Below, piece by piece: positions 4,401 to 28,901 of a stretch of DNA of 64,000 nucleotides (position 1 is its first letter; the number at the start of each line of letters is the position of its first letter). Below the pieces are notes generated by a model. That model saw nothing but the letters and a program-made list of their open reading frames with translations. It was not told where the DNA came from and made no database searches. This DNA is from Taxawa tesnikishii (nom. ined.). Its lineage: Eukaryota > Ascomycota > Dothideomycetes > Dothideales. The stretch spans positions 1 to 64,000 of the forward strand of contig JAPDRO010000002.1 of NCBI GenBank assembly GCA_030247885.1, written 5' to 3'. The position numbers were made by a program, and so were the translations under genes.

Positions 4401-5870
4401 GAGATGCGAAACAGCAACAGGCGCCAGCGGAGTATCTCCCCATCGGCGTCTCGGCCGTCTGCTGCAGATAACTCTCACAGCATTCCTTGACGAGCGCGAG
4501 CGTTTCTCCCCACCCTGCCGCTCTTTGCGAGCACAGTCATAGAAGATCAGCAGCTGCGCGACCCATATCATCGCAGACAGACTGCTGTTGAAGTTGCCGG
4601 GTTCCATCCAGCCTTGCGTAGACGGCTTGATGCTTAGCATCGCGCAGAAGCTCACTATTGGCGAGCGGTACCGTCGGGCTCCGGTAGTGTGACGGATAAC
4701 GAGCATCCATAACTCAACCAGCCCATCTCTCAGTTGGCCCTTGATCCCTTCACCCGTGCCCGTCGCTCCCCGTTCTGCTAACCGACGGAGGTTATGCCAC
4801 ACCACCCTTTGCTTGTCCGTCGGTTCGATCACGTCCTCTGGCCGGATCGTCTCCTCCGAGTCAGCACTGAAGTGGTACTCGTCACAGATCGCCACTCGCT
4901 CCAGGTACGACAGGAACTGTGACGCCAGCTTGAAGTAGACCTTGAGCGTGCCGGGCTCCTTGTAAGGATCGAACGGCCGAACCTTCCCAATCGACTCGAC
5001 CTGCGACGACTGGAACCGACTGAGAACGACGCGACATGGCCAAGTGAGCATACAGTCGGGTCCGTCGAAACACCAGCCGTGCGCCTCCCTGAGCACGTCC
5101 TCCATCGCATCGACGATCGTCCGCAGAGGACATCCTTCGTCTCGCGAGGGCACGGCGATCGCTGCTCGGATCTCGTCTTTCTTCAAGCCGCAGACATGGT
5201 CGACGATGCCGGTCTCTCTGAGCCATGGTACCACGGTAGAACGATGCTCGTCGAATCCGCGGACACGGTTGGCCGCAGATGCGGCGTCGCGCTCTGCCTG
5301 AAGGATGTCTTCTTCTTGCGTCCGGAAGAAGTCACGCTGGTGACCGGCTCGCCTCCGACCGCAAATCTCCAGGTCCGCTACTTGGACCTCGAAGTACCTC
5401 TGCCAGCTTCCGACCTTGAAGAAACGCTGACAGGCGCGGTCGCAAGACCACAGCTTGTTGTGGGTATGGACCTGCTTCAAACGAGCATCGCCGCCTCGCT
5501 TCTGTCCGTTGACCCAGCCGTGTTGCCGCTCACAATGATCTTGCATGCCACGCGGAGTGCGGCATATATAGGGACAAAGCCTGCCTTCGCCATCTTTCCC
5601 GCCACACTTCAAGCCGTCGAAGTACACCGGAAGTCCCGTTACGGGAGGCTCTGTTGCTGCTGGATAGATGACATCTGCCTCGACTTGCGCAAGTTCGGTA
5701 AAAGACCCGACTTTGGCAATAATGTCCCGCCGTTGTTGTAAGCTGAGACGCTTGTGATGCACACGAAGATGTTTGGCGAGCTGCGAAGGTACGACTGCAT
5801 ACTGACAATGGATGCAAACAAGGATGCGGTGCTGGGCGACTACTTGGAAGAGACGATGAAAATCATCCAT
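1437..5870 (-). CDS. Telomere-linked RecQ-like helicase (TLH), one gene over three frames
   Basis: Subtelomeric RecQ-type (superfamily II) DNA helicase read toward the telomere. The N-terminal part (start 5,870) carries two C2H2-like fingers (CIHC...HLRVHH; CPYIC...HCERQH), as in fungal OrsD/DUF3505-type proteins. The helicase core lies in the last 893 codons (4,118 to 1,437): Walker A LPTGAGKS (residues 339-346), DECH box (429-432), TAT (461-463), motif VI QESGRAGRDG (612-621), then a Cys-rich tail. The reading passes through three frames with three offsets, each beside a CCCC run on the top strand (4,134-4,137; 4,438-4,441; 4,508-4,511). Each is resolved by one extra base, which would give about 1,478 residues. 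This fits under-called homopolymers better than decay. The GC content is normal and the gene is not RIP-mutated, unlike the block beside it. Confidence 0.85.
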
Positions 5871-6211: not shown

Positions 6212-6314
6212 GCAAACGAATCGTGGTCAACAGGTGCAAACGAATCGTGGTCGTTCCTCTAACCCTTAGGGTTATAGCCCACGCAAAAGCAAACGAATCG
6301 TGGCCATTCGTTTG
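6212..6314. repeat. GCAAACGAATCGTGG repeats, three direct and one inverted
   Basis: Direct copies of GCAAACGAATCGTGG start at 6,212, 6,236 and 6,289. A shorter inverted copy (ATTCGTTTG) follows at 6,306-6,314. They sit at the boundary between the helicase region and the RIP-mutated block, and bracket the telomere-like inverted motif at 6,260-6,274. Confidence 0.85.
6260..6274. repeat. Telomere-like inverted motif TAACCC-TTA-GGGTTA
   Basis: A 15-bp head-to-head arrangement of one CCCTAA-strand unit and one TTAGGG-strand unit, TAACCCTTAGGGTTA. One unit each way can occur by chance, but it lies between copies of the junction repeat and within 60 bp of the transposon breakpoint. It may mark an old end-joining or healing event (inference). 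Confidence 0.5.
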
Positions 6315-6329
6315 ACTTCTACGAGTAGC

Positions 6330-6523
6330 TAAAATCTAATAAATACGTAATACTTACTACTTTATTTTTAGCTACCTTTATTAAAAGCTTTAAGAATATA
6401 AGAATAATAGCTATCTTACTTATACTTATAAAGTATTTAATAAAGACATATTTAAATCCTTATAGTAGCTTCTTTAGAAACTATTTAACTATATAGAATT
6501 AGTATAATAAAAGCTTAGTACTA
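6330..6523 (-). mobile_element. E1: left remnant beyond the E2 insertion
   Basis: About 194 bp matching, in reverse complement, the stretch of E2 immediately after 14,408 (for example AAGCTTAGTACTA at 6,511-6,523 against TAGTACTAAGCTT at 14,408-14,420). It continues E1 on the far side of E2. It is cut off near 6,330 at the junction with the telomere-side DNA, so about 6.3 kb of E1 including its other terminus is absent. Confidence 0.7.
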
Positions 6524-9500
6524 TATTACGAAATCCCGGATTATAGTATTAATAGTAATACTACTAATACTACTCGTACTAATAATACTACTTATACTAG
6601 ACGTTATAGTACTTACTACGTATACTAGTATATATAGTAATTACTATATATACTAATAATTCTAGTATATACTAGTATATTTAGCTTATCTTACTAGGTA
6701 AATTATTAGGTAAATTACGCTTTAACTTAGTACTACGTATATCTTCGTAAGCTTCGAGTAATAACCTTATTTAAAGCGATTTAATAATACGTACTAACTC
6801 GTCTATATAAACCGATTCGTCTATTTATATCGAGTTAGTTATATATATCGACTCGTCGATATTTATTAAGTTAGTAATACGCTACTATTAAGTTACTTAA
6901 ACTAACTAAGTTATATGTTTTAACTTATTAGTATATACTAGCTTATTAGCTTACTTTAACTTACTAATATACGTTAGCCTTCCTTAACGTAAAATATATA
7001 GTATATATAGATTCTAGTAATATATAACGTTAGTATAAAAGCGTAGCCTAGTATATTTATTTTATAGTATTTACTTATTTATTAACTTTATCCTTACCTT
7101 TACCTTAGCCCTCTTCTTCTTAAGCTAGGAATCTAGTAACTACTTTTAAATTGCTTTAAAACCATCCTTATTAAACGGGCGATTATCCTTACCTTATAGT
7201 ATAAGTATAAGTTTATTAGCCTTAGCGTAAATATTATATAACTATAAGTACTAGCCTCGTAGTAGTTCTAGTATATTTAACGTCCTTTTTTAACTTTTAC
7301 TTATAAAGCGCCTTTATAAGTAAAGGTTACTACCTTTAGCGTATACTCCGACTACCCTCTAGTTTACTATTATCCTTAAGTATTTATAATTAGTTATATA
7401 ACGAATAATAATAAGGAAAATAGCGAACTACTTAATAATTACTATACTATATTTCCTACTACGTTAAACTATTATTTAGAGGAACGCTTTACTCTAAGTA
7501 GGCTCCGAAACTTTTACTCTTATAATAGCTTTAATTACGTTACTATGTCCCGACTCGTTAAGTTATTATTCGACTTTATATTATTTAACTTATAGAATAT
7601 AACGTAGTTTATAGTAACTCTATAGTTAGATTTTAATAGAAAAGACGACTATCTCTTATAAAGACTAGTTTTATTTAAATCTTCGTTACTATTAATTTCC
7701 TTACTATTTAAGCTTTCCTTAAAAGTTAGTTTAGTAAGTATATTTACTTATTTCTATATATTCGTTACGTTAATAAATTTATTTATATATAAGTCCTTCT
7801 TAAGGGTCGCTAGTATAGCTTTAGTAAGGCGGCTTTAAATTAGCTCCTAACGTTTTAAATATTAAGTTAACTAGGTCTTTTACTTTTCTTCGAATAGTTT
7901 TACTACTTCGTTTAAGTTAAAGTTTAAATATATTAGCTTACTAGTCTTATCGGATTTATACGTTCTAGTAGCCTAGCTATTAAGAAATAACTATAAAGTA
8001 GTATAGACTAATACTATAAGGAAGGGTAATAGTAGTTAAAATAACTTAGTTATTAATAAATAAATACTAACTTAACTTACTTTAAAGTATATAAACTAGA
8101 TACTTTCTATTATTAAATAGCTAGTATATCTCTTAGCTTACGTTTAAATTAGCTTTTAGTATCTAGTAAAGAATAATGTTAGTATACTTTTCTTATCCTT
8201 ATACTTAAATAAGGTATTCGGTATATACTTATAAGTTTATTTCTTCTTAAATATAACGCTATAATATTATAAGTAAACTAGCCTTTTAAGTATAACCTTA
8301 ATTAAAGTAGTAGTAGTACTTCTACTCTTATAAATAACTTCGCGAAGCTAGTATACGCTTAGTATTATACTTATTTTGTTAGTCTTTTAATATCTTACCT
8401 TAAATCTTATACCTTTATATATAGTTACTAAAATACTCTATAGAGAGTTAGTCTTTAGCTTTTTATCTTAGACTCCTACCTACTTACCCTCGGCTATCTC
8501 GAGAAGTATAACTTTTGCTTATAAGGTAAGAAATATTAACTATTTATAGTATTTATTATACGTATAAGTAATAAGTTATATATATACTTTCGAGTATATC
8601 TTACGCTAGTTTAATAGTATTACTTATTCTTTCTCTATATTTACGCTATAGTATCTTAGTTAGTCTAGTATATTACTATCTTACGAGCTACTTACTCGGC
8701 TACTAGATTATAAAGAACTAATATTAATTACGTCGACGCTAGCGCTTATTATACTTACGTTTTATTTTCTTTTTTAACTAGAAGGTATTTCCTTAGAAAA
8801 CGTAAGTAATAGCGCTACTACTAATAGTATACTTACTTACTTCCTTTTATACTACTTTAAAAAGACTAGGAATATACGACTAGCCTCCGCTTTTATTAGT
8901 ACTATTAGGCGTAATATTAGTATATATTCGTTAAATACGTAGTTACTTATTATATATCTTAAACTCTCCTAGTATTATACTACTAAGATATCGTACTTAT
9001 ATACTAGTAAGATAGTAGTATATAGACGTAAAGTACTACTTACTCTCTTAGTATTAGTTTAAAGTAATAGTAATAAATATAATATAGACTTTTATCGAAC
9101 TAGGCGCATACGGATTTAAGTTAAGTCTAGTAGTTTTAGCGTACTAACTAACGTAAGGGAACGTTATCTTTCGCAAGGAATTATTAGCTAACGTAATATT
9201 ATATAAAGTCTAGTTTATAAGATATAGTTAAGTTAACTAGCGTTTATTTAAAGTAAGCCTAGTAGTTAACTTACTATATTATTATTCGATATATAAAGTA
9301 GTTCTTCCTACTAGTAAAAAGCTAAGTATAAATGTCGGGGCCTAAGTCTTTAGTAATATTTAATAATCCTAGCCCTCTAGGTACTAGGGTATTTAATACT
9401 ACTAATTATATTAACGTTAATATAAGCTAAGCTTCGAGATACTATATAGTAAGTAGTATTACTTAACGGAAGAGACCTAATAGACTTATATCTAATTAGT

Positions 9501-12500
9501 TAGTTATTTACTTAGTTAACTCGGAAATTAATAGGGACTCTACTCTTATTTAACTTAAAACGTAAATTATAGAGATTACTAACTTAGGACGTAAGTCGCT
9601 TATATCGTTAAATTACTACGAATAATTCGGTAATCTCTTACGAGTTTACGTATTTATAGTAGGTAGTAACGTACTAAAGGACTTAAGTCTCTTACCTTTA
9701 ATTCTTTACTTATATACTTTATTATATCCTTTAAGCCTTAACGGCGCTTTTAGTTAAAATAATATACTTTTATATAAACTATTTATATAGATACTTTCTT
9801 CTTTATATAATACTTCCTTATCTATACGCTTTACTTAATTACTCGATATAACTTAATAGAGACGAGTAGTAGTTTAATAATATACTTACGTAGCGACTTT
9901 ATATAGTTACAAATCTTATTATTATTTAATTTATTAGAATTAATCTTCTTATTAGTTCTAGTATTCGGTTTATTTAGATAGTCTTATACGCGTCTCTTAA
10001 ATCGTACTTCTTATAGCTCGGCGAGCTCCTTTATATAGGCTTCTTTAATATTATTTCTATTAATAGTTTATAGCTTCTTTACGGCCGTTTCTAGTTAAAA
10101 TACGCGACGGCTTACTTAGTATTACTACTCGAAAATAAGCGAGAGGAAGGTATTAATAAGTTAATAACTTTTATAAACTAGCTAAATATATAGGCTATTT
10201 ATAGCTTTAAATATTTTAACGTAGTTAGTACTAGTAATATAATAAAGAAAGTTAAAAGTTACCTTAAGAGCGTCTTATATACTAAGACTACCTTCTATTA
10301 CTACTTATTATCTATTAAAGGGTAGTCTCTAATTTAGTTATTATCTTATCTAAGGAAATTAGCCTTACGTTAGAAATTATAGTCGGATTCTAGTATTAAT
10401 ATAAATATATCCTAGTCTAAATCTTCTATTATAATTACGCTCGAAGAAGTACTATATAGTTAATTACGCGCTAGTTTATAAGGTCGATAAAGCGCTTTAA
10501 AAGTACTATCCCTTTATATAACTAATATTATTCCTTACTACGTCTTATATTTTATAGTTACTATAAAAGTTTAGGGAGTACTAGCGAATAGATAAGTATC
10601 GTCTAGTAAGTAGTATTTTAGCTACGTATCTTTCTCTTCGTTTATATACTTTATATTCTTACTCTTAGGGAGTCCTTTACGCTATTATTAGAAGTTTATA
10701 CTTATATAGTATACTAGGTCCCGAAAGAATACTTAACTCTTCTTTATCTATATAATTTTAACTATATCTAGGAAGCGACTTTAAGTTTACTTAGACGTAA
10801 AGATATACGTAAATATCTCCTTATATATAGCGTTCTTTTTAGAAATTAAGTAAAATATTTACTTAAGTAAGCCTCTTTATATAATCTCGTATTCTACGCG
10901 TATATAGAATTCTTTATAGCTATTATTATTTAGACTAAGACCCTCTCGAAGACTACTATATCTAAGTTAATCATCTAGTAACTAAGTAAATATAAGTTTA
11001 GTAATTTATATTATTATTATCGTCTAAGTCGTCTTACTTAGAGTAGCTAGTCTATTTAAGTTAGTATTATATTAACTAATAGTAAAAGATCGTAGTTATA
11101 TCTTATTAAAAAACGAAGTAAACATTAGTATAATATAGTTAAATCTATTAATTATATAGCCTCGTTATACTAATATATTATATAAGGTATAGTAGCTTAA
11201 TATAAAGAGTTACTATTATATATACTATTATATTTAGCTTAGATCTTAATATTCTAGGTTATTATCGTACGTATATATCTTTATACTTATTACCTCGAGT
11301 TAATAGGACTACGCTTACGTCGTATATAAGTTAACCGAAGTTACTTATATATATACCCTTAAAAAGTAACGTTAACTTATCGTACTTTTCCTTATTATCG
11401 AAAAGAATACTCTATAAATATAATAACCTCGTTTAATATTAACTTTAATAATAGTAATATTTAAGTATATAGTTCGTATAATTACTTTCTTTTACTTATA
11501 TATAATATTTCTATCGCTAGATATACTAAACTATAGTAGATTCGAACGGCTAGCTATTTATATTAACTATAACTTATATACTTACTTTCGTTATCGTTAT
11601 ATACGAGCTTATAATACTAATAATCCTCGCTAGGCTAGGCCTACCTCTAGGATTAATAGCCGAGGTATAGGGACTTCTTATTAGCCGGGGACGTTCTCTT
11701 CGTTAAGGCGACTATAATAGCGCGTTAATAGTCTAGTTTAGACGGCTATATAGCGAGATATTATCTTTAGTTTAAGGAAGTATCTTTATATAAGTATATA
11801 CGCCTAATATACTAATTAAAACGTTTATTACTATTTCCCTATTTTTTATTATAAAGCCTATATATTAGCTAATAGCGTAATTATAGTAGTATATTATTTA
11901 TATTAGTTTCTTTATACTTACTACGTTATATATTAAGTTATATAGTTTAGCGCGTTTTTAGTATAGTAGATAGTATATATTTAGTAAATTAAGTCGACGA
12001 GTTAGTACTACTACGTATAAATTGCCTTTCAAATCGCCTTTATCCCTTATATTTATATACTACTACGTATAGACTCGCCTTATATAATACGAGTATATAG
12101 AGTAAATAGAAAAGTAATTTATAAGTAATAAGTCGAATAGTAATTCGTTTTTATTACTAGCCTTTTAACTTACTAGTAAACTAAGTTTACTTTATATTTA
12201 TATATAGGTACTTTATTAGTTCGATTATACTTATTATTTATCTTATTTATAAATATATATATATATATATACTAATAATCTTTCTTACGTTTACTACCTC
12301 TTTTATTTACTACTATATAGAGCTTTCCTTCTTTATTACGTTCTTCTCCTAATTATAAATTACTATATCTAGTTATATTAGTTACGTATAATACTAGTAA
12401 TATAGTAACTCGTTACTCTACGTATTAACTATACGTTTCTTAGCGATTTACTAACTATCTTGCCTTATACTTTATTTAAACTTCCTTTAACTATTACTTA

Positions 12501-13904
12501 CGCGTTACTTTACGCGCTATAAGGCTTTTACTAAAGTTCTTTATTTACGCTACTATTAGGAAATACTACTATTCTAAGATTCTTTACTTAGTTAGTTTAG
12601 CTATATACTTAGTACTTACGTACGTTATTCGCTCTTTAAGCTATTAATTTAAGACTAATAACTAATATCTTTAGATTACTTACTTTACTAACCTTCTTAT
12701 TTATTAGCCCTATTACTTCGACTACTCCTTCCTTTATTTTATGTTCTAGTTATTATAGTAACTTATTTCGAAGTATTTAACGTATCCGAGGATATAACCT
12801 AAATAAAAGATAGTATTATAATATAGTTACATACTAAAATAAGCGAGAAGTTCGACTTATTTTTTAGGACGTTCTTTAACTAAAACGTAAATAACTTCCG
12901 CGTTATAGTAACTACTACTATAGATAAATATAAGAGTACTAGTATAAATATAAAAGCCTCTTACCTTAGTAATAAGAAACTCTAGATCGAGTAACGCTTT
13001 AAAGCTAAGAGCTTAATAATAAATAACTTTACCGATATATTTAAATATTATAGCGAAACGTAACTATAATAGTTTACTAAGAAAATACTTTATAGTTTAA
13101 ACTATATTACGAAAGTTCTAGTAGACGTAAAAGGGAGCGTACTCTAGGCGTAGATTATAAAGGTATAAGGAGCCCGAAAGAAAGGAAATAAAGGTTTAAT
13201 ACTTACTTACTTTATACTATAGTCCTAGACTTAGTCGAGGAGCCCTATAGTAATATCGTTATTTAGCTACTATAATTATAGCTCTCTTAAGTTACGTTTA
13301 TTAAGTTTAAGCCTTAAAGCTAATAACTTTATAAACCTTAACTTCGGTCCGTTACACCCTAATAATAAAGACGTAATAAATATTAATAACTTACTATTTA
13401 TAGTATATATACTATATAAAATACCTCTTATTATTATAGTTATTAAGTAAACTAAGTTATATCTCTATATTAACTAAAATACTTATTATAGTTAGACTAG
13501 TACGTTCCTTATACTAGATAGAGCTACTTAGTAAGATACGTTTATTAAGTTTCTAAGTACGTCGAACTATAAGGATTAGCTAGTATTTTAGTTTAATTTA
13601 TAAGCTAAATATATATATTCTCGAGTCGATAATAAGTTTAAGCTTAGTATTATAGTAATATAACTCTAGAAATTCTAGCGTAAAAGGAGTAGTACTATTT
13701 AATTCTTTCTTACTTTTAATAAGGATATTATTTAGCTTATATTCTATAAAGAGAAAGGTAAAGTTATTACGCTATCCTAAGTAGTATACTATTAATATAT
13801 TAATAGTTAAGACGCGCTTAACTAATAACGTTTATAATATAATTATTTAGACTTTAAAAGAGTAACTTACGAAGGACAATTTAGTTTAATAGTAACTAGT
13901 AAAT

Positions 13905-14085
13905 AAGAATACTTAGTAGCTCGTAAATAAGGAAACTTAGTAACTCGTAAATAAGAAAGCTTAGTAACTTATAAATAAGGAAGCTTAGTAACTTACGAAT
14001 AAGAAAGCTTAATAACTCGTAAATAAGGAAGCTTAGTAACTCGCGAATAAGGAAGCTTAGTAATTCGCTAATAAGGAAGCTTAGT
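13905..14085. repeat. 24-bp tandem array in E2 (about 8-9 units)
   Basis: Units of the type AATAAGGAAGCTTAGTAACT plus four bases repeat with a 24-bp (eight-codon) period. Divergence between units is mostly C/T and G/A. The in-frame period suggests a repeated segment of an ancestral protein, just upstream of the helicase-like region. The opposed copy is at about 21,190-21,530. Confidence 0.85.
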
Positions 14086-14469
14086 ATAATAATAAAGAAC
14101 GCAATATTAAAGAGACTAAATAGCTATAGATAATTCCTATTATATTAGATAACGATATTAAGGTTACTAAAAGCCTTATTATATCTTTTATTAATCTTAG
14201 TAAATATAACTACTCGAAGAATAAGGTACTATTATCCGCGAAGTTATACCTTAAGATACGAGAGAGTTTAACTAAAGAAGCCTTAGCGAAAGTAATAAAT
14301 TTAAAATAAATCGACGTTAATACTTAGAACGCTATATATAAGTTTTTCGGCTATAACCTTACTAATATATATTTAAGATTTAGCGTATTCTTCCCGGGAT
14401 AAAAGCGTAGTACTAAGCTTCTATTATACTAATTCTATATAGTTAGATAGCTTCTAAAGAGGCTACTAT

Positions 14470-16700
14470 AAGGATCTAAATACGTCTTTATTAGATACTT
14501 TATAAGTATAAGTAAGATAACTATTATTCTTATACTCTTAAAGTTTCTAGTAAAAGTAACTAAAGATAAAGTAATAAGTATTACGTATCTATTAGATTCT
14601 AGCTTCTATTTAAATCCTAACGCGCTTACTTAAGTCGATAAACTATTACGACGTACTTAATTAAAACTTATACTAGTAATTATTCTTACTTACTTATTAT
14701 CTAACTAAGTTAATAAATAGCGTAAGTTTTCTATAGTTATCTTAAAGAAATTTACTAGAGTTAAGATAATTCTAATATTATTAGTTAGCCTATTAACTAA
14801 TAGGACTATAAAATTCGAATTTAAGGATTACTATAAGCTTAACGATATAGTTAAGTCTAAAGACTTACTACCTTAAGAGTAGCTAGTAACTACTTATAAA
14901 TTAGAGGAAGATATACCTATAATAATTATAGCTAAAATTCTACTAGAACCTAATACGTTATATAAACTTAAGTCGTAGTAATTAGAATAGTATATACTTA
15001 CTACTTAGATAATTATAGTATTAAAACTCGCGGTTAAAGTACTAGGAGACTTAAACGTTTATAGAGAAATTTACGCTTATTAGAGTATTATTATATTCGA
15101 CGAGTATTATATAAACTATAATTTTAATTCGTCTATTTAGTTTAAGTTAACGTACCTTCCTAGTAATCCGAATTTTATTTTTATAAGTAAAACTTCGTTT
15201 CTATTAACGCTTACTTTAGTCCCTCCTCTTCTTACTACTTACGCTTACTACTATAAACTAAAGTCTAAAATAAAGTTTATAACTATTACGGCGAGTAAAT
15301 AGACTTTAAGTAACGTATATACTATAAATTTACCGTTTCGACTAAATCTTACTTAAGTAAAGTAACGTACTTTATCTCGAATTAGCTTTATATTAATCGC
15401 TTAAAGTATAGCGATTATTAATAAGGCTTAAAATAAGAAGAATAAACTCTTCGATATAATTGCTAAATTAATATAAGATAAAAAGGATAAAGAAGATAAA
15501 GAGGAACGTAATAATAATAATAAGTAAGATACTCTCTTAGATAGTATTCGCGTCGAGTTAATACTAGAGTTATAACGTATAATATAAGTTATAGTAAAGG
15601 GCGCTAAAAAGTATATAATTTACTTTCCTATAAAGCTTTAGTAGTAAGTTAATTTAAATTCTAAGGGCTAACTAGTATTAGACTTCCTACTATGTATTAT
15701 ATAAAATTAGTATTTTAATATTAATAAGAAGTTTCGTTATAACGGCCTAGGGGACGAATAGTTATAATTAGTAAAGAAAGTCTAGACGAAGATTAATAAA
15801 TACTTTAAAGCTTAAACGGAGTAGCTATTCTTTTAAATTATTCGTAAATTTTATATTTAAATAGTATTTCCTTATCTATATACTCTAATAAAGAACGATA
15901 ATAAGATAAAGGCTAAGCTAAATAAAATAGACTATAACGACGTAGTAAGGATTCTAAAGGGCGTATAAAATTCTACGTTATAAAGCTATATATACGAGAT
16001 TAATTAACTCCCTCTAATAATAGTATTAAAGGATATAATTACGTAAATACGTAGTTAACTTAACTTCTTTAAGAGGCTACGAAAGATTATTATTATAGCT
16101 TTTATACTATTTAACGTTATAGTAGTCTATATAGTAAGTAGTTACTACTTATATATACTAATAAACTACTAATATTATCGTAGTACTTACTTTAGCTAAT
16201 AAGGCGACTAAACTATATAGTAATTAATAATAAGAAGGACATCGTACTTATTACTTTATAAAATAGTTAAACTAAGCGTAACGAGTAGAGTATTAACTTT
16301 AAGACTATAACCCTTAGCTATAAAGAATAGCCTAGTATTATAGTCGCCTTAGTAATATAAATTATAGTAAGCTTATCCCTTAACTTAGTAAACGTAGTAA
16401 TTATTATTGATTCCGAGTTTAATATAGTAAAGGTTAAGTAAGTTATAGCTAGAGTAAGACGTATAAGGCTTACGTAAAAGGCTCCTTATACTAAAGAGTT
16501 TCGTCTAATATATAGTACTTTATAGTATAACCTTTAAGATTAAATATATAAGCGCTAGAATTTAGCTACTTATATTTGCGATTAAGTATACTATATAGCT
16601 AGATAGACTAGTTATAGTAGCAATTAAATAGGTACCTAGAGCGTAGATAGTACTTAAAAGAAGATATTATAAAATAGTATAAAAGATCCCTTATATTTAG
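14470..16700 (+). pseudogene. Fossil SF2/SNF2-like helicase region of E2
   Basis: Short stretches still read like a superfamily II helicase in order. A hydrophobic strand with Lys resembling a Walker A region lies near 14,505-14,545. IIIFDEYYIN (DExx box) is at 15,087-15,116. ARVRRI, resembling motif VI of SNF2-type helicases, is at 16,448-16,465. The spacing of about 450 codons fits a SNF2 core. The region is heavily RIP-mutated and cannot be expressed as it stands. The family call is by resemblance of motifs only. Confidence 0.5.
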
Positions 16701-19700
16701 TAATATAATTTACTAGGTCTTATACTTAGTTTTACTTCTTTCTCTACGATTATAAAGGTAAATAAATATAATATTATTAGTTCTCTTATACCCTTTACTT
16801 CGTCCGTAATATATTATAGTTCTTACTACGAACTATAAGTCGTTTATAATTTGAGAGTTATTAAATAAGTTATAAGGTAACTTATATACTTATAGTATTC
16901 CTTTAAGAATATAGAAATAAGACGTAAGAAGAGATAATCTAAGGTAAATCTAAATACGCCGAATTGTAATATAAATCGTAATATAAATTAGTAAAAGACG
17001 AATCGATAGAAGGCGAATTAAAAGATTTAATCTAATTTAATCGAGCGCCTAGGCGTCTAGGGTTAACCTTCTTTAACTTATATATATACGACTTTAATAC
17101 GATAGTAAATATATACTACTACTATAGTTTAACTATATACTTATAATATATATAGACGTATATATAAACAATTATATAGCCTACGAATATATATTACTAT
17201 ATATAGAGTATACTATTTATATAACTCTCGATACGTAACTATTAATATAGAGGATACTACTCGTTTACTAATAACTAATATATTAACTAATATTATAAAT
17301 AGAGAAACGGCTATACTATAAATTAAAGATATACTATAACTATAGTTTAATTATATTAATAAAGGCTATAGTATATAAAACGTAACTAGCGTAACTATAA
17401 ATAATAGTAAGTTTAAAGAACTACTAGACGTTTTTTAAGATATTACTTATAACTTATTAACTATAAAAGAGGAAGATAACTTATATAGAGATATACTATA
17501 AAGTTCTATATTAGAGGACAAATAAGATAATATTAGAACTAGTAGCTTTATAGCTTATAGTAATAAGAGTAAACTATTATTATTTACCTTATATATAGAA
17601 AGTAAAACGAGGACATTTAAAGAAGTTATAAGGAAAGTAGTAAGTAGAGAAGTAAATAAGTAAGTAGTATTATATATTAATACTATTTCTCTAGGTTCTA
17701 ATATAAATATATATATATACTTCTTATATTTACAAACTTAAAATAACTCGCTAGCTTTACTAGTAATATAGATATTACGTTCGCGAACTAGCTATACTAG
17801 GAAAATATATCTAAAAACGTAATTACTTACTTAATATATAAACTAAGGCTATATGCGATTACGTAATACTTTAGCTAGCGTTCGGTAGCTAAACTCGAAG
17901 AAAAGATAACTATAATAAGAAGAGGAAGAAACGTTATATAATAGAATATCTAGCCTTTTACGTTACCTTTAATAAATATATTATAAGGAACTAAAAGATA
18001 TTACTTTTAATATAAACGAGTCGAAGACGCGATTTAGTTCTTTTTAAAGTATCCTAGTTTTAGTAATAACTTTTAATTCTCTCCTTACCGAATATAAATA
18101 AGTAATAGAAACGCGCGTAAAGTATATAATAAGATAACTTTAGCTAATTAGTAGTAAGATACTTAAGAGTAGCTTAACTATAATAATACTATAATTATAC
18201 TATTAATTATATCTACTAATAAGATATAAGTAACGAACTATTAGGGAGACTAATTAACTTATTTAATATACCTTACTATAAGTAACCTTATAGCGAATAT
18301 ATAAAACTCTAACTAAAGGCCTAAATTTATACTTCTTACTTTAATTCTAATAGTAAAAGAAAAGGATACTACTACTTAAGCTCGTATATTTTATAATTAT
18401 CTTAAGGTCCTATTTAACCTTATTAAGGAGATCCTATATAATAGTAGTAGAGAGCTACTATATAGTAATAGATAAATGCGTTAGTACTTCCTTATTCTTA
18501 CTATAATAACTCTAGACTATAAAGAGTAAGCTTAAGTAATAGAAGTTAAGAATAGTCGATAATATACTATATATAGTATACGTTTAAGTAATCGAGAGAA
18601 CCTTAAAGTATAGGCTCCCTAGAGGATATATAAGGAGACTTAATAGTAAATTAGTTACTAATAGATAAACTCTACTAACTATAACTAAGAAGACTAAGTA
18701 TATAATATCGACTTATTTACTTTCGACTATTTATAAGTAAATATATACGTAATAATAATAGTTAATATCTTATACTAGTTACTTAAGGGCGTACTTAATT
18801 ACGTATAGTAATAGTTAATTACCTTACTAGAGAACTTACTTCCTAAAAGATATAGCAAAATATATAAGGTAGTAATTAAAGAAGTTAAATAGCGTAGAAT
18901 ATAATTTCGAAGTAAAATACTACTAAAGGACTTTATTATAGATTTTATTAATAAGCGTTTTATAGTAGTCTTACTATATTATAACTTACGTATATTTAAG
19001 TAGTTATTAAGTAAAAGACAAATAATAAGGAAAGAGCTTAAGAGTATCTTATAATAGTTACTACTAGTATTTACTCTATTCTTAAAGGAAGCTAAAGTTA
19101 TAAAGGTAATTTTATTTATATATATAGTCGTCGACTTTATCTTACTTTTACTCTATTATAATTATAATAATAATACTCTTCGCTATATAACGTTAGCGCT
19201 ATTTCGTATAAACTAATATAAGGAGATATTTTAAAGGTATTAGCTTAATATAATAAAAGATATAAAAGGCTATTTTAACTTCTTTAAATAGTATATAATA
19301 ATATACTATATAAATATAATTAAACGACTCGAATTAGTGCTAGGACTCGATATAAACTATAGTAAGTATAACTACGTAACGTTTATTAAGTAAGAATATA
19401 AGCGTACTAATAGAAAGGAAAGCTAGGAGAATTAGCTTACTATATAAAATAATTATAGTCTAAGTATAGTTACTAAATTTAATATTAAACTATACTTATA
19501 TAATCTTACTATAATAAAGAAAATAGAAGAAGTAAATAAACTAGTAAAGCTAACCGAGGTAGTTAATATAAAGCGTTATTTTAAGTAGCTACTAATAGTA
19601 TAACTAAAACTATACGTAGTATAAGAGAAATAATAGTAAGTTAACGAAGTATAAATACTCCTTAGACTTATAGTTAGTATCGTCTTTTAATAAGCGTTAA

Positions 19701-20870
19701 TTATATTTATACGCGAATCGAGATTATTAGAAGCTAGTATTACTTAAGCTAGTATATACGATCCTAATTAGTTAGAGGAAAACGACTTATAAATATTACT
19801 ATATTAAGTATAGTTTTACTCCTTATTATAGTATAGAAAAGCTACTAGTAAAGATCCTAATAATCCTAATAGTACTAAATATAATATAATTAAGTATGCG
19901 CTAAACTAGTAAAACATTAATAGTAACGTAAGATATAATTAGATATAAGTATAAGAATACGTAATAGTTACCTTTAAGTCGTACGATAATTTAGTAAATA
20001 CTATATTTTAAGTAGCGTTTAATAGACGTTTACTAGCGCGCTTATAACTTATTATTACTATAGAAGATAAGTAGCGCGACAAAAATAGTAATATAACTAT
20101 ATAGAGATATATAAGTACGTTAGTTAATTTATATATACTTAAGAACTTATATAGCTACGTAGATACTATATATAAGATAACTATTATTAAGCTAATATTA
20201 CTATTACCTTAAAGAAGCTTATAACGCTTAAGTAGACGAAGAATATATCCTTAACTAGTATTTACTATAGTATTTACGTAGTATCTACGTTAGTACTATA
20301 AAACGATAAGAGTAGTAAAATATATATTAATAATACTACTAATTAGGAGACGTATAATTTCCTATAAAACGCAAACTAAAAAAGGAAGTAACTCGAATAG
20401 CTATTAACTCGAGGAACGCTCGTATAAGAGTAGTAAAGGTTATAATATACTAAAGAGCTAAATACTACTTATAAGTAAAATAACCTTAGTATTTACTAAA
20501 TCGTTAACTTACTTACTAAACGAATCGTAAGGGTAGCGACTCGCGTAGTCTTATATATAGCTCGTATATTAAACGACTTACGTATAGTAGAGAGATAGTA
20601 GGCTATAGTTAAGTTAGTAGCCGATTTAGTTAATAATTTAATTAATAATTCGTAGACTAGGTAATAAATAAGTCTATAAGAAGAGAGTTATTAATTTACT
20701 TTATATAAAGTTATTATAATAATGTTTCTCGTAGTATAGTATAGTCTTATATAACGTAGTATATATTTATATAATATAGTAAGCGTAGTAAGCGTAATAT
20801 ACTTAGTATATATAGTACGATTATTCGTACTATACTTACTACTAATACTATAATTTAGGATTTTGTAACG

Positions 20871-23800
20871 TACGCTTTTATCCTAGGAAGAATATACTAA
20901 ATCTTAAATATATATTAATAAGGTTATAACTAAAAAACTTATATATAGCGTTCTAAGTATTAACGTCGATTTATTTTAGATTTATTACTTTCGCTAAGGC
21001 TTCTTTAGTTAAACTCTTTTATATCTTAAAGCGTAACTTTACGGATAATAGTACCTTATTCTTCGAGTAGTTATATTTACTAAGATTAATAGAGAGTATA
21101 GTAAAGCTTTTAGTAACCTTAATATTGTCGTCTAATATAGTAGGAATTATTTATAGCTATTTAGTTTCTTTAATATTACGTTCTTTATTACTATACTAAG
21201 CTTCCTTATTAGCAAATTACTAAGCTTCCTTATTCGCGAGTTACTAAGCTTCCTTATTCGCGAGTTACTAAGCTTCCTTATTTATAAGTTATTAAGCTTC
21301 CTTATTTATAAGTTACTAAGCTTCCTTATTTATAAGTTACTAAGTTTCCTTATTCGCAAGTTACTAAGCTTCCTTATTTATAAGTCGCTAAGCTTCCTTA
21401 TTTATAAGTTACTAAGCTTCCTTATTTATAAGTCGCTAAGCTTCCTTATTTATAAGTTACTAAGCTTCCTTATTTACGAGTTACTAAGTTTCCTTATTTA
21501 TAAGCTACTAAGCGTCCTTATTTACTAGTTACTATTAAACTAAATTGTCCTTTATAAGTTACTCTTTTAGAGTCTAAATAACTATATTATAAACGTTATT
21601 AACTAAGCGCGTCTTAACTATTAATATATTAGTAGTATACTACTTAAGATAACGTAATAACTTTACCTTTCTCTTCGTAAAATATAAGCTAAATAATATC
21701 CTTATTAAGAGTAAGAAAGAGTTAAATAATATTACTCTTTTTACGCTAAAATTTCTAGAGTTATATTATTATAATACTAAGTTTAAACTTATTATTAACT
21801 CGAAAGTATATATATTTAACTTATAAATTAAACTAAAATACTAGTTAATTCTTATAGCTTAACGTACTTAGAAACTTAGTAAACGTATTTTATTAAGTAA
21901 CTCTATCTAATATAAGGAACGTACTAGTTTAACTATAATAAGTATTTTAGTTAATACGAAGATATAGCTCGGTTTACTTAATAACTATAATAATAAGAGG
22001 TATTTTATATAGCGTATATACTACAAATAATAAGTTATTAATATCTATTATATCTTTATTACTAGAGCGTAATAGACTAAAGTTAAGGTTTATAAAGTTA
22101 TTAGCTCTAAGGCTTAAACTTAATAAATATAACTTAAGAAAGTTATAATTATAGTAGTTAAATAATAATATTACTATAGGACTCCTCGACTAAGTTTAAG
22201 ACTATAGTATAAAGTAAGTAAGTATTAAACCTTTATTTCCTTTCTTTCGAGCTTTTTATACCTTTATAATCTACGCCTAGAATACGCTCCCTTTTACGTC
22301 TATTAAAACTTTTATAATATAATTTAAACTACGAAGTACTTTCTTAGTAAACTATTATAGTTATATTTTACTATAATATTTAAATATATTAGTAGAGTTA
22401 TTTATTATTAAGCTCTCGACTTTAAAGCGTTACTTAATCTAGAGTTTCTTATTACTAAGGCGAGGGGCTTTTATATTTATACTAGTACTCTTATATTTGT
22501 TTATAGTAGTAGTTACTATAGCGCGAAAGTTATTTACGTTTTAGTTAAAAAACGTCCTAAAAAATAAGTCGAATTTCTTACCTATTTTAGTACGTAACTA
22601 TATTATAATATTATCTTTTATTTAAGTTATATCGTTGAATACGTTAAATACTCCGAAATAGGCCGCTATAATAACTAGAATATAAAATAAAGGAAGGAGT
22701 AGTCGAAGCGGTAAGGCTAATAAATAAGAGAGTTAGTAAAGTAAGTAATTTAAAGATATTAGTTATTAGTCCTAAATTAATAGCTTAAAGAGTAAATAAC
22801 GTACGTAAGTACTAAGTATATAGCTAAACTAACTAAGTAAAGGATCTTAAAACGGTAGTATTTCCTAATAGTAGCGTAAATAAAGAGCTTTAATAAAAGC
22901 CTTATAATATATAAAGTAACGCGTAAGTAATAGTTTAAAGGAAATTTAGACGAAGTATAAAGTAAGATAGTTAGTAAATTACTAAGAAACGTATAGTTAA
23001 TACGTAAAGTAATAAGTTACTATATTACTAGTACTATACGTAACTAATATAACTAGACGTAGTAATTTATAATTAGAAAAAGAACGTAGTAAAAAAGGAA
23101 AGCTTTATATAGTAGTAAATAAAAGAGGTAGTAAACGTAAGAAAGATTATTAGTATATATATATATATATATTTATAAATAAGATAAATAATAAGTATAA
23201 TCGAACTAATAAAATACTTATATATAAATATAAAGTAAACTTAGTTTACTAGTAAGTTAAAAGGCTAATAGTAAAAACGAATTACTATTCGACTTATTAC
23301 TCGCGAATTACTTTCTTATTTACTTTATATACTTATATTATATAAGGCGAGTCTATACGTAGTAATATATAAATATAAGGAATAAAAGTAATTCGAAAGG
23401 CAATTTATATATAGTAGTACTAACTTATCGACTTAATTTACTAAATATACGCTATTTACTATACTAAAAACGCGCTAAACTATATAACTCGATATATAAT
23501 ATAGCGAGTATAAAGAGACTAATATAAATAATATACTACTATAATTACGCTATTAGCTAATATATAGGCTTTATAATAAAGAAATAGGGAAATAGTAATA
23601 AACGTTTTAATTAGTATATTAAGCATATATACTTATATAAAAATACTTCCTTAAACTAAAGATAATATCTTACTATATAGTCGTTTAAACTAGACTATTA
23701 ACGCGCTATTATAGTCGCCTTAATAGAGAGAACGTCCCCGGCTAATAAGAAGTCCCTATACCTTAGCTATTAATTCTAAAGGTAAGCTTAGCTTAGCGAG

Positions 23801-26800
23801 GATTATTACTATTATAAGCTCGTATACGACAATAACGGAAGTAAGTATATAAGTTATAGTTAATATAAATAGCTAGCCGTTTAGATCTACTATAATTTAG
23901 CGTATTTAGCGATAGAAATATTATATATAAGTAAAAGAGAATAATTATACGAACTATACGCTTAAATATTACTATTATTAAAGCTAATATTAAACGAGGT
24001 TATTATATTTATAGAGTATTCTTTTCGATAATAAGGAGAAGCGTAATAAGCTAACGTTACTTTTTTAAGGGTATATATATAAGCGACCTTAGTTAACTTA
24101 TATACGACGTAAGTATAGTCCTATTAACTCGAGGTAATAAGTATAAGGATATATATATATAATAATAACCTAAAATATTAAGATCTAAGCCGAATATAAT
24201 AGTATATATAATAGTAACTCTTTATATTAAGCTATTATACCTTATATAATATATCGGTATAATAAGGCTATACGACTAATAAATCTAACTATATTATACT
24301 AATATTTACCTCGTTTTTTAATAAGATATAACTATAATCTTTTACTATTAGTTAATATAGTATTAACTTAAATAAACTAACTACTTTAAGTAAGACGACT
24401 TAAACGATAATAATAATACGAATTACTAAACTTATATCTACTTAGTCGCTAGATAGTTAACTTAGATATAATAGTCTTTAAGAGGGTCTTAGTCTAAATA
24501 ACGATAGCTATAAAGAATTTTATATACGCGTAAAATATAAGATTATATAAAGAAGTTTACTTAAGTAAATATTCCGCTCGATTTCTAAAAAGAACGCTAT
24601 ATATAAGGAGATATTTACGTATATCTTTACGTCTAAGTAAACTTAAAGTTACTTCTTAAATATAGTTAAGATTATACGGACGAAGAAGAGTTAAATACTC
24701 TTTCGAGACCTAGTATACTATATAAGAATAAACTTCTAATAATAGTATAAAGGACTCCCTAAAAGTAAGAATATAAAGTACGTAAATAAAAAGAAAGATA
24801 TATAGCTAAAATACTACTTACTAAATAATACTTATTTATTTATTAGTATTCCTTAAACTTTTATAGTAACTATAAAATATAAGACGTAGTAAGGAATAAT
24901 ATTAGTTATATAAAGGGACGGTACTTTTAAAGCGCTTTATCGACTTTATAAACTAGCGCGTAGTTAGTTATATAGTACTTCTTTAAGCGTAATTATAATA
25001 GAAGATCTAGACTAGGATATATTTATATTAATACTAAAATCTAATTATAGTTTCTAACGTAAGGTCGATTTCTTTAAATAAGATAATAACTAAATTAGAA
25101 ACTACCCTTCGATAAATAATAAGTAGTAATAAAAGGTAGTCTTAGTATATAAGACGCTCTTAAGGTAACTTTTAACTTTCTTTATTATACTACTAGTATT
25201 AACTACGTTAAAATATCTAAAGCTATAAACGGCTTATATATCTAGCTAGTTTATAAAAGTTATTAGCTCGTTAACGCCTTCCTTTTACTTATTTTCGAGT
25301 AGTAATACTAAGTAAGTTATCGCGTATTTTAACTAGAAATAGTTATAAAGAAGCTATAAACTATTAATAAAGATAGTATTAGAGAAGCTTATACGAAGGA
25401 GCTTACTAAGCTATAAGAAGTACGATTTAAGAGACGTATATAAGACTATCTAAATAAACCGAATACTAGAACTAATAAGAAGATTAATCCTAATAGATTA
25501 AATAATAATAGGATTCGTAATTACGCGAAGTTACTACGTAAGTATATTATTAAATTACTACTCGTTTCTACTAAGTTACGTTAAGTAATTAAGTAAAGTA
25601 TATAAACGAGGAAGTATTATATAAAGAAGAAAGTATCTATACGAATAATTTATATAAAAGTATATTATTTTAACTAAGAGTACTATTAAGGCTTAGAGGA
25701 TATAATAAAGTATATAAGTAAGAAATTAAAGGTAAGAGACTTAAGTCCTTTAGTACGTTACCGCCTACTATAGATATGTAAACTTATAAGAGATTACTAA
25801 ATTATTCGTAGTAATTTAACGATATAAGCGACTCGTATTCTAAGTTAATAATCTTTATAATTTACGTTTTAAGTTAAATAAGGGCGAAGTCTTTATCGAT
25901 TTCCGAGTCGACTAAGTAGGTAGTTAACTAATTAAATATAAGTCTATTAAGTCTCTTCCGTTAAGTAATATAACTTACTATATAGTATCTCGAAGTTTAG
26001 CTTATATTAACGTTAATATAATTAGTAGTATTAAATACCCTAGTACTTAGAAGGCTAGGATTATTAGATATTATTAAAGACTTAAGTCCCGATATTTATA
26101 CTTAGCTTCCTACTAGTAGGAAAAACTACTTTATATATCGAATAATAGTATAGTAAGTTAGCTACTAAGTTTACTTTAAATAAACGCTAGTTAACTTAGT
26201 TATATCTTATAAACTAGACTTTATATAATATTATATTAACTAATAATTCCTTATAAAAGATAACGTTCCCTTACGTTAGTTAGTACGCTAAAACTATTAG
26301 ACTTAACTTAAATCTATACGTACTTAGTTCGATAAAAGCTTATACTATATTTACTACTATTATTTTAGACTAATACTAAGAAAGTAAGTAATACTTTATA
26401 TCTATATACTACTATTTTACTAGTATATAAGTACGATATCTTAGTAATATAATACTAGGAGAGTTTAAGATATATAATAAGTAACTATATATTTAATAAA
26501 CGTACGCTAATATTACGCCTAATAGTACTAATAAAAGTAAAGGCTAGTTATATATCTCTAGTCTTTTTAAGGTAATATAAAAGGAAGTAAGTAAGTATAC
26601 TATTAGTAGTAGTATTATTACTTACGTTTTCTAAGGAAATACCTTCTAGTTAAAAAGAAAATAAAACGTAAGTATAATAGGCGCTAGTATTAACGTAATT
26701 AATATTAGTTCTTTATAATTTAGTAGTCGAGTAAGTAACTTATAAGATAGTAGTATATTAGACTAACTAGGATATTATAGCGTAAATATAAGGAAAGGAT

Positions 26801-28901
26801 AAGTAATACTATTAAACTAGCGTAAGATATACTTAAAAGTACGTATACGACTTATTACTTATACGTATAATAAATACTATAAATAGTTAATATTTCCTAC
26901 CTTATAAGCGGAAGCTATACTTCTTAAGATAGCCGAGAGTAAGTAAGCGAAAGTCCGAGATAAAAAGCTAAAGACTAACCCTTTATAAAGTATTTTAGTA
27001 ACTATATATAAAGGTATAAGATTTAAGGTAAGATATTAAAAGACTAACAAAATAAGTATAATACTAAGTATATACTAACTTCGCGAAGCTATTCGTAAGA
27101 GTAAGAGTACTACTACTACTTTAATTAAGGCTATACTTAAAAGGCTAGTTTACTCGTAGTATTATAGTATTATATTTAAGAAGAAATAAGCTTATAAGTA
27201 TATACTAAACGCCTTATTCGAGTATAAGGATAAGAAAAGTATACTAACATTATTCTTTATTAAATACTAGAAGCTAATTTAAACGTAAGCTAAGAAGTAT
27301 ACTAACTATTTAATAATAGAGAGTATCTAGTTTATATACTTTAAAGTAAGTTAAGTTAATATTTATTTATTAATAGCTAAGTTATTTTAACTACTATCGC
27401 CCTTCCTTATAATATCGGTCTATATTACTTTATAGTTATTCCTTAATAGCTAAGTTACTAAAACGTATAAATTTAATAAGACTAGCGAGCTAATATATTT
27501 AGACTTTAACTTAAATAAAGTAGTAAAACTATTTAAGAAGAAGTAAAGGACCTAGTTAACTTAATATTTAGAACGTTAAAAGCTAATTTAAAGTTACTTT
27601 ATTAAAGCTATACTAGTAACTCTTAAGAAGGACTTATATATAAATAAATTTGTTAACGTAATAAATATATAGAAATAAGTAAATATACTTACTAAACTAA
27701 CTTCTAAGGAGAGTTTAAATAGTAAGGAAATTAATAGTAATAAAGATTTAAATAAAGCTAGTCTTCGTAAGGAATAGCTATTTTCTCTATTAAAATCTAG
27801 CTATAGAGTTACTATAAACTACGCTATATCTCGCGAGTTAGATAATATAAAGTTAAATAATAACTTAATAAGTTAAGATATAGTAACGTAGTTAAAGCTA
27901 CTATAGGAGTAAGAGTTTTAAAGTTTACTTAAAGTAAAGCGTCCCCTTAAACGATAGTTTAACGTAGTAAGAAGTATAGTATAGTAATTATTAAGTAGTT
28001 CGCTATCTTCCCTACTATTATTTATTACGTAACTATCTATAAATACTTAAGGATAATAGTAAACTAAAGGGTAGTCGAAGTATACGCTAAAGGTAGTAAC
28101 CTTTACTCGTAAAGGTACTTTATAAGTAAGAGTTAAAAAAGGACGTTAAATATACTAGGACTACTACGAGGCTAGTACTTATAGTTATATAATATTTACG
28201 CTAAGACTAATAGACTTATACTTATACTATAAGGTAAGGATAATCGCCCGTTTAATAAGGATAGTTTTAAAGCGATTTAGAAGTAGTTACTAGATCCCTA
28301 GCTTAAAAAGAAGAGGGCTAAGGTAAAGGTAAGAATAAAGTTAATAAATAAGTAAATACTATAAAATAAATATACTAGGCTACGCTCTCGTATTAACGTT
28401 ATATATTACTAGAATCTATATATACTATATATTTTATATTAGGAAAGCTAATATATATTAGCAAGTCGAGGTAAGTTAATAAGCTAGTATATACTAGTAA
28501 GTTAAAATATATAACTTAGTTAGTTTAAGTAACTTAATAGTAGTATATTATTAACTCGATAAATATTAACGAGTTAATATATATAACTAACTCGATATAA
28601 ATAGACGAATCGGTTTATATAGACGAGTTAGTATATATTATTAAATCGCTTTAAATAAGGTTATTACTCGGAGCTTATAGAAATATATGTAGTACTAAGT
28701 TAAAGCGTAATTTACTTAATAATTTACCTAGTAAGATAAGCTAAATATACTAGTATATACTAAAATTATTAGTATATATAGTAATTACTATATATACTAG
28801 TATACGTAGTAAGTATTATAACGTCTAATATAAGTAGTATTATTAATATAAGTAATATTAGTAGTATTACTACTAATATTATAATCTAGAATTTCGTAAC
28901 G
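20871..28901 (-). mobile_element. E1: second copy of the giant element, right part
   Basis: This is the reverse complement of 6,524-14,409, recognisable throughout (for example 28,261-28,330 against 7,081-7,170, and the 24-bp arrays). It starts with the same TIR at 28,901, followed outward by TA. It stops at 20,871, exactly where the TIR of E2 begins. It is therefore the first 8.0 kb of an opposed copy into which E2 inserted. The arms differ in length (8,031 against 7,886 bp), largely through array copy number. Confidence 0.75.
21190..21530. repeat. 24-bp tandem array in E1 (about 14 units)
   Basis: This is the reverse-complement counterpart of the E2 array (units like CTTCCTTATTTATAAGTTAC plus four bases). 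It has about five more units than the E2 copy, which accounts for most of the length difference between the two element arms. Confidence 0.85.

Follow-up and report, generated by a model that had tools for sequence, protein, structure and literature searches.

An apparent 22-kb palindrome in Taxawa tesnikishii is a 14.3-kb element inserted in reverse into an earlier copy of itself

How does a stretch of 22 kb come to look like its own reverse complement, and what kind of element lies beneath it? The question is raised by the first 64,000 nucleotides of contig JAPDRO010000002.1 (assembly GCA_030247885.1) of the dothideomycete Taxawa tesnikishii (nom. ined.), the whole stretch that we analysed and call the window; it is the start of contig C12 in a 29.4-Mb assembly of 34 contigs (C1, C2 and so on). 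An original prediction made from the letters alone had proposed that a giant element with terminal inverted repeats (TIRs), E2, is nested in an opposed copy of itself, E1. We find that the apparent palindrome is indeed a 14.3-kb element inserted in reverse into an earlier copy of itself. We are also highly confident of the fuller reading, in which both copies are Plavaka-type cut-and-paste transposons, E2 sits in opposed orientation inside the helicase gene of E1 with a 2-bp duplication, and both have since suffered repeat-induced point mutation (RIP).

Nested structure of the apparent palindrome

Alignment of the window with itself (blastn) gives two long inverted matches, 6526-14099 with 28899-21326 (89.9% over 7578 columns) and 13900-14409 with 21380-20871 (90.4%), which together make up the palindrome. 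The original prediction had staked the nested structure beforehand on an inverted match between 6330-6523 and the sequence past 14,408, and such a match is found, between 6324-6523 and 14607-14408 (90.5% over 200). When the two flanks of E2 are fused at one TA, the joined site aligns inside E2 over 398 columns, gap-free and at 91%, so that E2 is complete with exact boundaries and the order of E1 on the minus strand runs from 28901 to 20873, is broken by E2 and continues from 6521 to 6324. This shows that E1 was in place before E2. The parts are as follows.

6524..20870, plus strand: E2, a complete Plavaka-type element of 14,347 bp, heavily RIP-mutated (self-blastn, full-length copy on C24 at 86%, junctions)
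6522..6523, no strand: TA, left target-site duplicate of E2, within E1 (junction sequence)
20871..20872, no strand: TA, right target-site duplicate of E2, within E1 (junction sequence)
6524..6558, plus strand: left TIR of E2, followed by a subterminal repeat zone; its first two bases are TA, read as mutated CG
20836..20870, minus strand: right TIR of E2 (TIR comparison)
20873..28901, minus strand: first part of E1, element coordinates 1 to about 7886 (outer TIR at 28901, then TA)
6324..6521, minus strand: resumed part of E1, ending at 6324, the remainder of the element being absent (self-blastn, joined-site alignment)

The helicase gene of E1 is split by E2 into two pieces on the minus strand, C12:20866-21762 and 6310-6522. 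As the far end of E1 is lost, of the two ends that would show its own target-site duplication (TSD) only the outer one (28901, then TA) is readable; the missing 6.2 kb would have been lost on the telomere side.

The window begins with a telomere-type array (TAACCC). Back-to-back telomere units (TAACCC-TTAGGG) at 6260-6271, about 50 bp away from the truncated end of E1, are perhaps the trace of a chromosome-end rearrangement. Beyond the other end of E1 an AT-rich RIPed tract runs on from 28902 to about 31500 (about 2.5 kb).

Inverted duplications occur at such arrays, and with arms of about 8 kb that are 90% alike one might think of a true palindrome that arose at the chromosome end through inverted duplication or hairpin replication, and whose TIRs would be coincidental. 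We regard such an origin as very improbable. The uninterrupted continuation of E1 across E2 we already count as refuting it, E2 is bounded by two TIRs and a 2-bp duplication, the 14.3-kb unit is present at other sites in the genome, and a second self-nested pair, on C10, lies in the same orientation.

Mutation, termini and copies elsewhere in the genome

An un-RIPed copy on C2 allowed the mutations to be read directly: the region L046 (C2:253500-263499) holds its right half, with normal dinucleotide ratios. Against this half the C24 copy differs by 1172 transitions (C-to-T or G-to-A) and 0 transversions in 8160 aligned columns, and E2 by 27% transitions and 0.02% transversions; of the 1042 CpA sites E2 has 1031 changed, and the two parts of E1 that were tested have all of theirs changed (148/148 and 30/30). 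These comparisons show RIP-type mutation of nearly every CpA in the tested parts of both E1 and E2. Between E1 and E2 transversions amount to 0.06% over 7884 columns, a count by which the two are judged to have been near-identical originally. Since transversions are almost nil and the transitions are of RIP type, the 90% identity of the arms is not a measure of age. DNA_methylase domains at no fewer than three places in the genome are compatible with RIP and do not identify a RIP enzyme.

The prediction also held that the TIR pair should be found together elsewhere, and so it is: inverted pairs of the end words lie 13.6-14.4 kb apart on C1 (two), C2, C10 (two), C11, C22, C24 and C30. The RIPed end word has 29 matches in the genome against 3 for its backwards control, and the un-RIPed word 13 against 0. 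With E2, a member of subfamily A, the pairs define at least ten TIR-bounded copies of 13.6-14.4 kb in two subfamilies; here and below, copy and domain counts for the genome are lower bounds drawn from the best-scoring candidates.

C2:247317-261661: subfamily A, un-RIPed
C11:595884-610227: subfamily A, lightly RIPed
C30:33730-48143: subfamily A, lightly RIPed
C24:19466-33810: subfamily A
C1:1694044-1708341: subfamily A
C1:662082-675962: subfamily B
C10:410838-424936: subfamily B
C10:486461-500507: subfamily B
C22:234539-248138: subfamily B

The two subfamilies agree over the initial 13 bp of the TIR; beyond it their DNA is alike in hardly anything but parts of the transposase end. Within subfamily A, the C24 copy is 86% identical to E2 across its full length. 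Nine candidates were compared with the leftmost 154 bp of the C2 copy: identity falls from 100% (C2 itself) through 97% (C30), 95% (C11), 86% (C24), 82% (C1:1694044), 80% (C6) and 78% (E2 on C12) to 77% (C17), with one partial match at C1:140465 (85% over 89 bp); two short self-inverted matches are not copies. The genome also holds many truncated pieces of the element, and one of the 29 end-word matches, at C12:1172233 in GC-rich DNA, is no TIR. A third, divergent group with the same architecture is seen at C10:462230-474410, C18:11834-24312 and C22:53577-65939. Just past the right end of the C2 copy lies a Tc5/pogo-type transposase frame (DDE_1, HTH_Tnp_Tc5; L046:8666-9999).

E2 is not alone in being self-nested. 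On C10, the copy at 486461-500507 sits in a kin copy in the same orientation, with TT on either side and the outer copy contiguous, both junctions having been read; the pair 476556/500505, tried as a single 24-kb element, has unequal flanks (TA and TT) and is two nested elements. A third case, known from match coordinates only, is the copy at C11:595884-610227, which lies between pieces of an older copy, again in the same orientation. The same coordinates for C11:594938-634783 place a lightly RIPed copy inside a saturated older one, which gives a dated order of events, and the older copy is apparently interrupted once more, by about 11 kb.

The un-RIPed ends are CGTCACGAAATCC, i.e. CGTCACG..CGTGACG, of which TTACG is the RIP-mutated form. 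The end given in the original prediction, TTACGAAATCC, is a RIP-mutated terminus (CpA to TpA) that lacks the leading CG, and the TIRs, put there at about 36 bp, are about 35 bp long, with 31 of the first 35 positions in agreement in the un-RIPed copy. All seven copies for which both junctions were read, from the ten bounded ones, have identical 2-bp flanks: TA in four (E2, C24, C1:662082 and C2), TT in two (C10:410838 and C10:486461) and AA in one (C22). The proposed TA target therefore describes E2 but is not a strict rule: the target is 2 bp, AT-rich and not strictly TA. E2 and the C22 copy have TA at one end where other copies have CG, which we take as mutated CG. The un-RIPed copy reads CA at the position where E2 is inserted, so the TA/TA of E2 may have been CA/CA before RIP. 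Inside the termini of the C2 copy the word TACCAC is crowded: the 154 bp at one end hold 5 instances and those at the other 6, where 50 windows of its right half average 0.06 (maximum 1). Clustered subterminal repeats of this kind are also found in Spm/CACTA elements.

The transposase and its relatives

Which family does the element belong to? The original prediction could not name one, and a profile search of the copies elsewhere finds a Plavaka transposase. In the C2 copy an uninterrupted frame of 917 residues, with its domain at C2:258665-259606, is the best Plavaka match in the genome; it matches Pfam Plavaka (PF18759) at 3.1e-73, over positions 1-325 of 325 and with 247.3 bits (cut-off 26.3), with no second family from Pfam at E<=1. 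The profile is found at 17 or more places in the genome, 17 of 17 above the curated cut-off. E2, which is outside that list, reaches E=1.1e-18 (67.9 bits, also above the cut-off), frames of the RIPed C24 copy, read with X at stops, reach 6.9e-15 and 5.5e-11, and the domain carries 4 stops in the lightly RIPed C11 copy and 10 in that of C30. A phmmer search of the transposase against the PDB returned nothing at E<=10.

17705..20450, plus strand: remnant Plavaka transposase gene in E2 (domain 17990-18799, PF18759)

A motif scan of the C2 frame picks out D173, D272, C288xxC291, H531xxxH535 and E555, and the order D, D, C(2)C, H(3-4)H, E is the one given for Plavaka and its kin (Kojima 2025, PMC12730594). 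In RIPed kin the motif residues are altered from H to Y, C to Y and E to K, as results from C-to-T and G-to-A mutation. The element is thus predicted to encode a DDE transposase of Plavaka type, related to EnSpm/CACTA, and its transposase, catalytic motifs and TSD all place it in the Plavaka clade: the clade's 2-3 bp TSD is seen as 2 bp in 7/7 copies read, and C(2)C and H(3-4)H lie between the second D and the last E. The short target, one part of a combination that had seemed unusual for a fungal DNA element, has precedent in the 2-bp TSDs reported for Plavaka (PMC12730594).

The TA on either side of E2 and of three other copies, four of seven in all, could also point to a Tc1/mariner-type, TA-specific element with an unusually large cargo. 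A strict TA target fails on the TT of two copies and the AA of another, the transposase frame matches Plavaka at the E-value given above and no second family, and a six-frame Pfam scan of the C24 copy (all but its last ~860 bp) found no DDE_1 or DDE_3; this explanation is the least probable of all that we considered.

Other large elements compare with it as follows. Starships, likewise large elements of filamentous ascomycetes, carry a tyrosine-recombinase captain at one end; here we have TIRs, a DDE transposase, about 14 kb and a 2-bp TSD, and the RIPed C24 frames have no tyrosine-recombinase Pfam match (E<=1), the un-RIPed left half lying outside the scan. Maverick/Polinton elements have a 5-6 bp TSD, a family B DNA polymerase and a retroviral-type integrase, and are set aside on the 2-bp TSD; the RIPed C24 frames also lack such domains, which is weak evidence by itself. 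Membership of KDZ (Zisupton) would require an 8-bp TSD, and the copies here show 2 bp only. Academ elements have TSDs of 3-4 bp, and Kolobok elements TTAA. AcademH and KolobokH are DNA transposons that share with ours a helicase gene (PMC10799480), but the transposase here is Plavaka, the sole family that Pfam reports for the frame at E<=1, and the TSD is 2 bp, so we reject membership of either; since these helicase carriers are already known, a helicase in the present element appears to be a new combination and not a new principle. The literature that we searched, with most subscription papers outside it, yielded no helicase-bearing Plavaka element and no report on SNF2-helicase EnSpm in fungi, on KDZ in Ascomycota or on RIPed nested palindromes.

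The Plavaka clade itself is said to have been founded in a paper by Iyer et al. in 2014. According to PMC12730594, PlavakaA has the termini TGT..ACA and PlavakaB CATCA..TGATG; the Plavaka families described there were reconstructed from Agaricomycotina. The present element resembles them in its full-length transposase domain, 2-bp TSD and TIRs; it differs in its termini, by which it is neither PlavakaA nor PlavakaB, in its SNF2-type helicase and further conserved protein stretches, and in its host, apparently a RIP-competent filamentous ascomycete, as is suggested by how strong RIP is, by the HET-domain genes and by the telomere repeat. With EnSpm/CACTA and the wider CMCT clade it has a TSD in the range of 2-5 bp and the C(2)C/H(3-4)H signature in common (same source), and it differs from them in that CA..TG ends are lacking and Plavaka is the sole Pfam profile matched. 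Plavaka is further recorded from Rhizophagus (PMC11075540), among annotated proteins of plant-pathogenic fungi (PMC10156984) and as flanking the giant repeats of Amoebidium (PMC11244446).

The helicase gene and self-nesting

Just upstream of the transposase, the un-RIPed C2 copy has a helicase gene (SNF2-rel_dom 3.8e-11, Helicase_C 4.2e-7) which spans three open frames and probably contains introns. Comparison with it and with other copies places the following in the window.

13662..16501, plus strand: remnant SNF2-type helicase gene in E2 (comparison with the un-RIPed C2 copy)
13890..14086, plus strand: 24-bp tandem array in E2, 8.2 copies
21194..21534, minus strand: 24-bp tandem array in E1, 14.2 copies
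7515..8468, plus strand: left-half conserved protein stretch 1 (frame common to the divergent third group)
10233..11369, plus strand: left-half conserved protein stretch 2 (comparison with other copies)

In the un-RIPed copy the 24-bp array corresponds to an RLADEEAQ-type repeat of 8 residues within the helicase frame. Against the PDB (phmmer) this frame has weak SNF2-type matches, at best 0.018; the top-ranking match (0.00045) falls on the repeat (residues 76-143), and we discounted it together with the centrin matches to that stretch. In the C24 copy, six-frame Pfam scans of its left 8.5 kb gave no credible family (GtrA at E=0.54 was dismissed), and stop-codon density was too weak by itself to locate left-half genes. 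Some Plavaka elements carry TET/JBP genes; a search of the genome for Tet_JBP (E<=0.1) was without a match, and such a cargo was dropped.

Is the helicase part of the transposition machinery? It could be a host gene picked up by chance: capture of host genes by transposons does occur. However, helicase and then transposase are found in three subfamily B copies (two on C10 and that on C22) at about 26-38% amino-acid identity, and the third group (C10:462-474k, C18:12-24k, C22:54-66k) repeats the arrangement, with the two left-half stretches ahead of helicase and transposase. Such conservation in three groups only about 26-38% identical suggests long joint descent, and a chance passenger seems to us rather unlikely, even if one RIPed copy, discussed below, lacks a helicase match.

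In the mechanism that we propose, the transposase would bind the TIRs and subterminal repeats, double-strand cuts would excise the element and joining with a 2-bp stagger would insert it (cut-and-paste), while the SNF2 ATPase, present in all three divergent groups, would aid its action in packed chromatin. Self-nesting would then follow from insertion, or survival of insertions, favouring AT-rich RIPed DNA, the element's own dead copies included. The 300-bp flanks of six full copies (for C2 on the left, 46 bp) have a GC fraction of 0.19-0.30, against 0.47-0.59 per kb where the window carries genes (1-6 kb and 32-64 kb); the flanks of E2 are E1 itself by construction. Survival alone may account for this, insertions in RIPed, gene-poor DNA persisting and genic ones being purged without any targeting; AT-rich flanks in all six measured copies are what purifying selection in a compact genome would lead one to expect. 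The un-RIPed, apparently recent C2 copy in AT-rich DNA (GC 0.20 in the 46 bp to its left and 0.19 in the 300 bp to its right) speaks against survival alone, as do three self-nested cases among ten or more full copies (the window, opposed; C10, same orientation; C11, from match coordinates only). Neither is decisive, and we give survival alone an even chance.

It is a tentative suggestion, and one that we hold somewhat doubtful as a whole, that the element is an undescribed third Plavaka lineage (CGTCACG..CGTGACG, 2-bp A/T targets) of a RIP-competent ascomycete, with its own SNF2 remodeller and a preference for inserting into DNA that is RIPed and packed, its own dead copies among it. Several points weigh against the Plavaka-type reading and the mechanism set out above. 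The termini fit neither PlavakaA nor PlavakaB, nor are they CA..TG, the usual form in the wider clade, and the catalytic residues were chosen by motif and not from a structure. The SNF2 region of E2 itself has no Pfam match at E<=1, that of C24 yields just a weak Helicase_C (0.071), the RIPed subfamily B copy at C1:662082 has a transposase only, with no helicase match at E<=1e-3, and the left-half stretches taken alone have no Pfam match at E<=10. The un-RIPed C2 copy was read over its leftmost 154 bp and from 253500 onward, with 247471-253499 outside the reading. Finally, the role of the helicase and the insertion preference are what we infer, and AT-rich flanks could be equally explained by survival in gene-poor DNA.

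The rest of the window has features of its own. On the telomere side, two subtelomeric frames on the minus strand, 1437-4118 and 4383-5870, place an un-RIPed RecQ-type helicase frame (best PDB match helicase Q5, 7.6e-26; Pfam DEAD and Helicase_C) next to an OrsD-domain frame, the former resembling telomere-linked helicase genes. Two HET-domain (heterokaryon incompatibility) frames, also on the minus strand, lie within about 11 kb of sequence near the chromosome end (34308-35627 and 43864-45330).

The element had seemed to be without a family because RIP had erased the family signal; it can now be named as Plavaka, and RIP accounts for the apparent 90% identity between the arms as well as for the TTACG ends. 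A sparsely described clade gains a 14-kb form that bears a helicase and has different termini. The graded copies within one genome, un-RIPed, lightly RIPed and saturated, offer a good basis for measurements of RIP, and with self-nesting seen repeatedly one can test whether an SNF2 protein encoded by a transposon directs insertion to silent chromatin. If the reading as a third lineage is true, the mutation defence of the host would make the landing pads for the next round of insertion.

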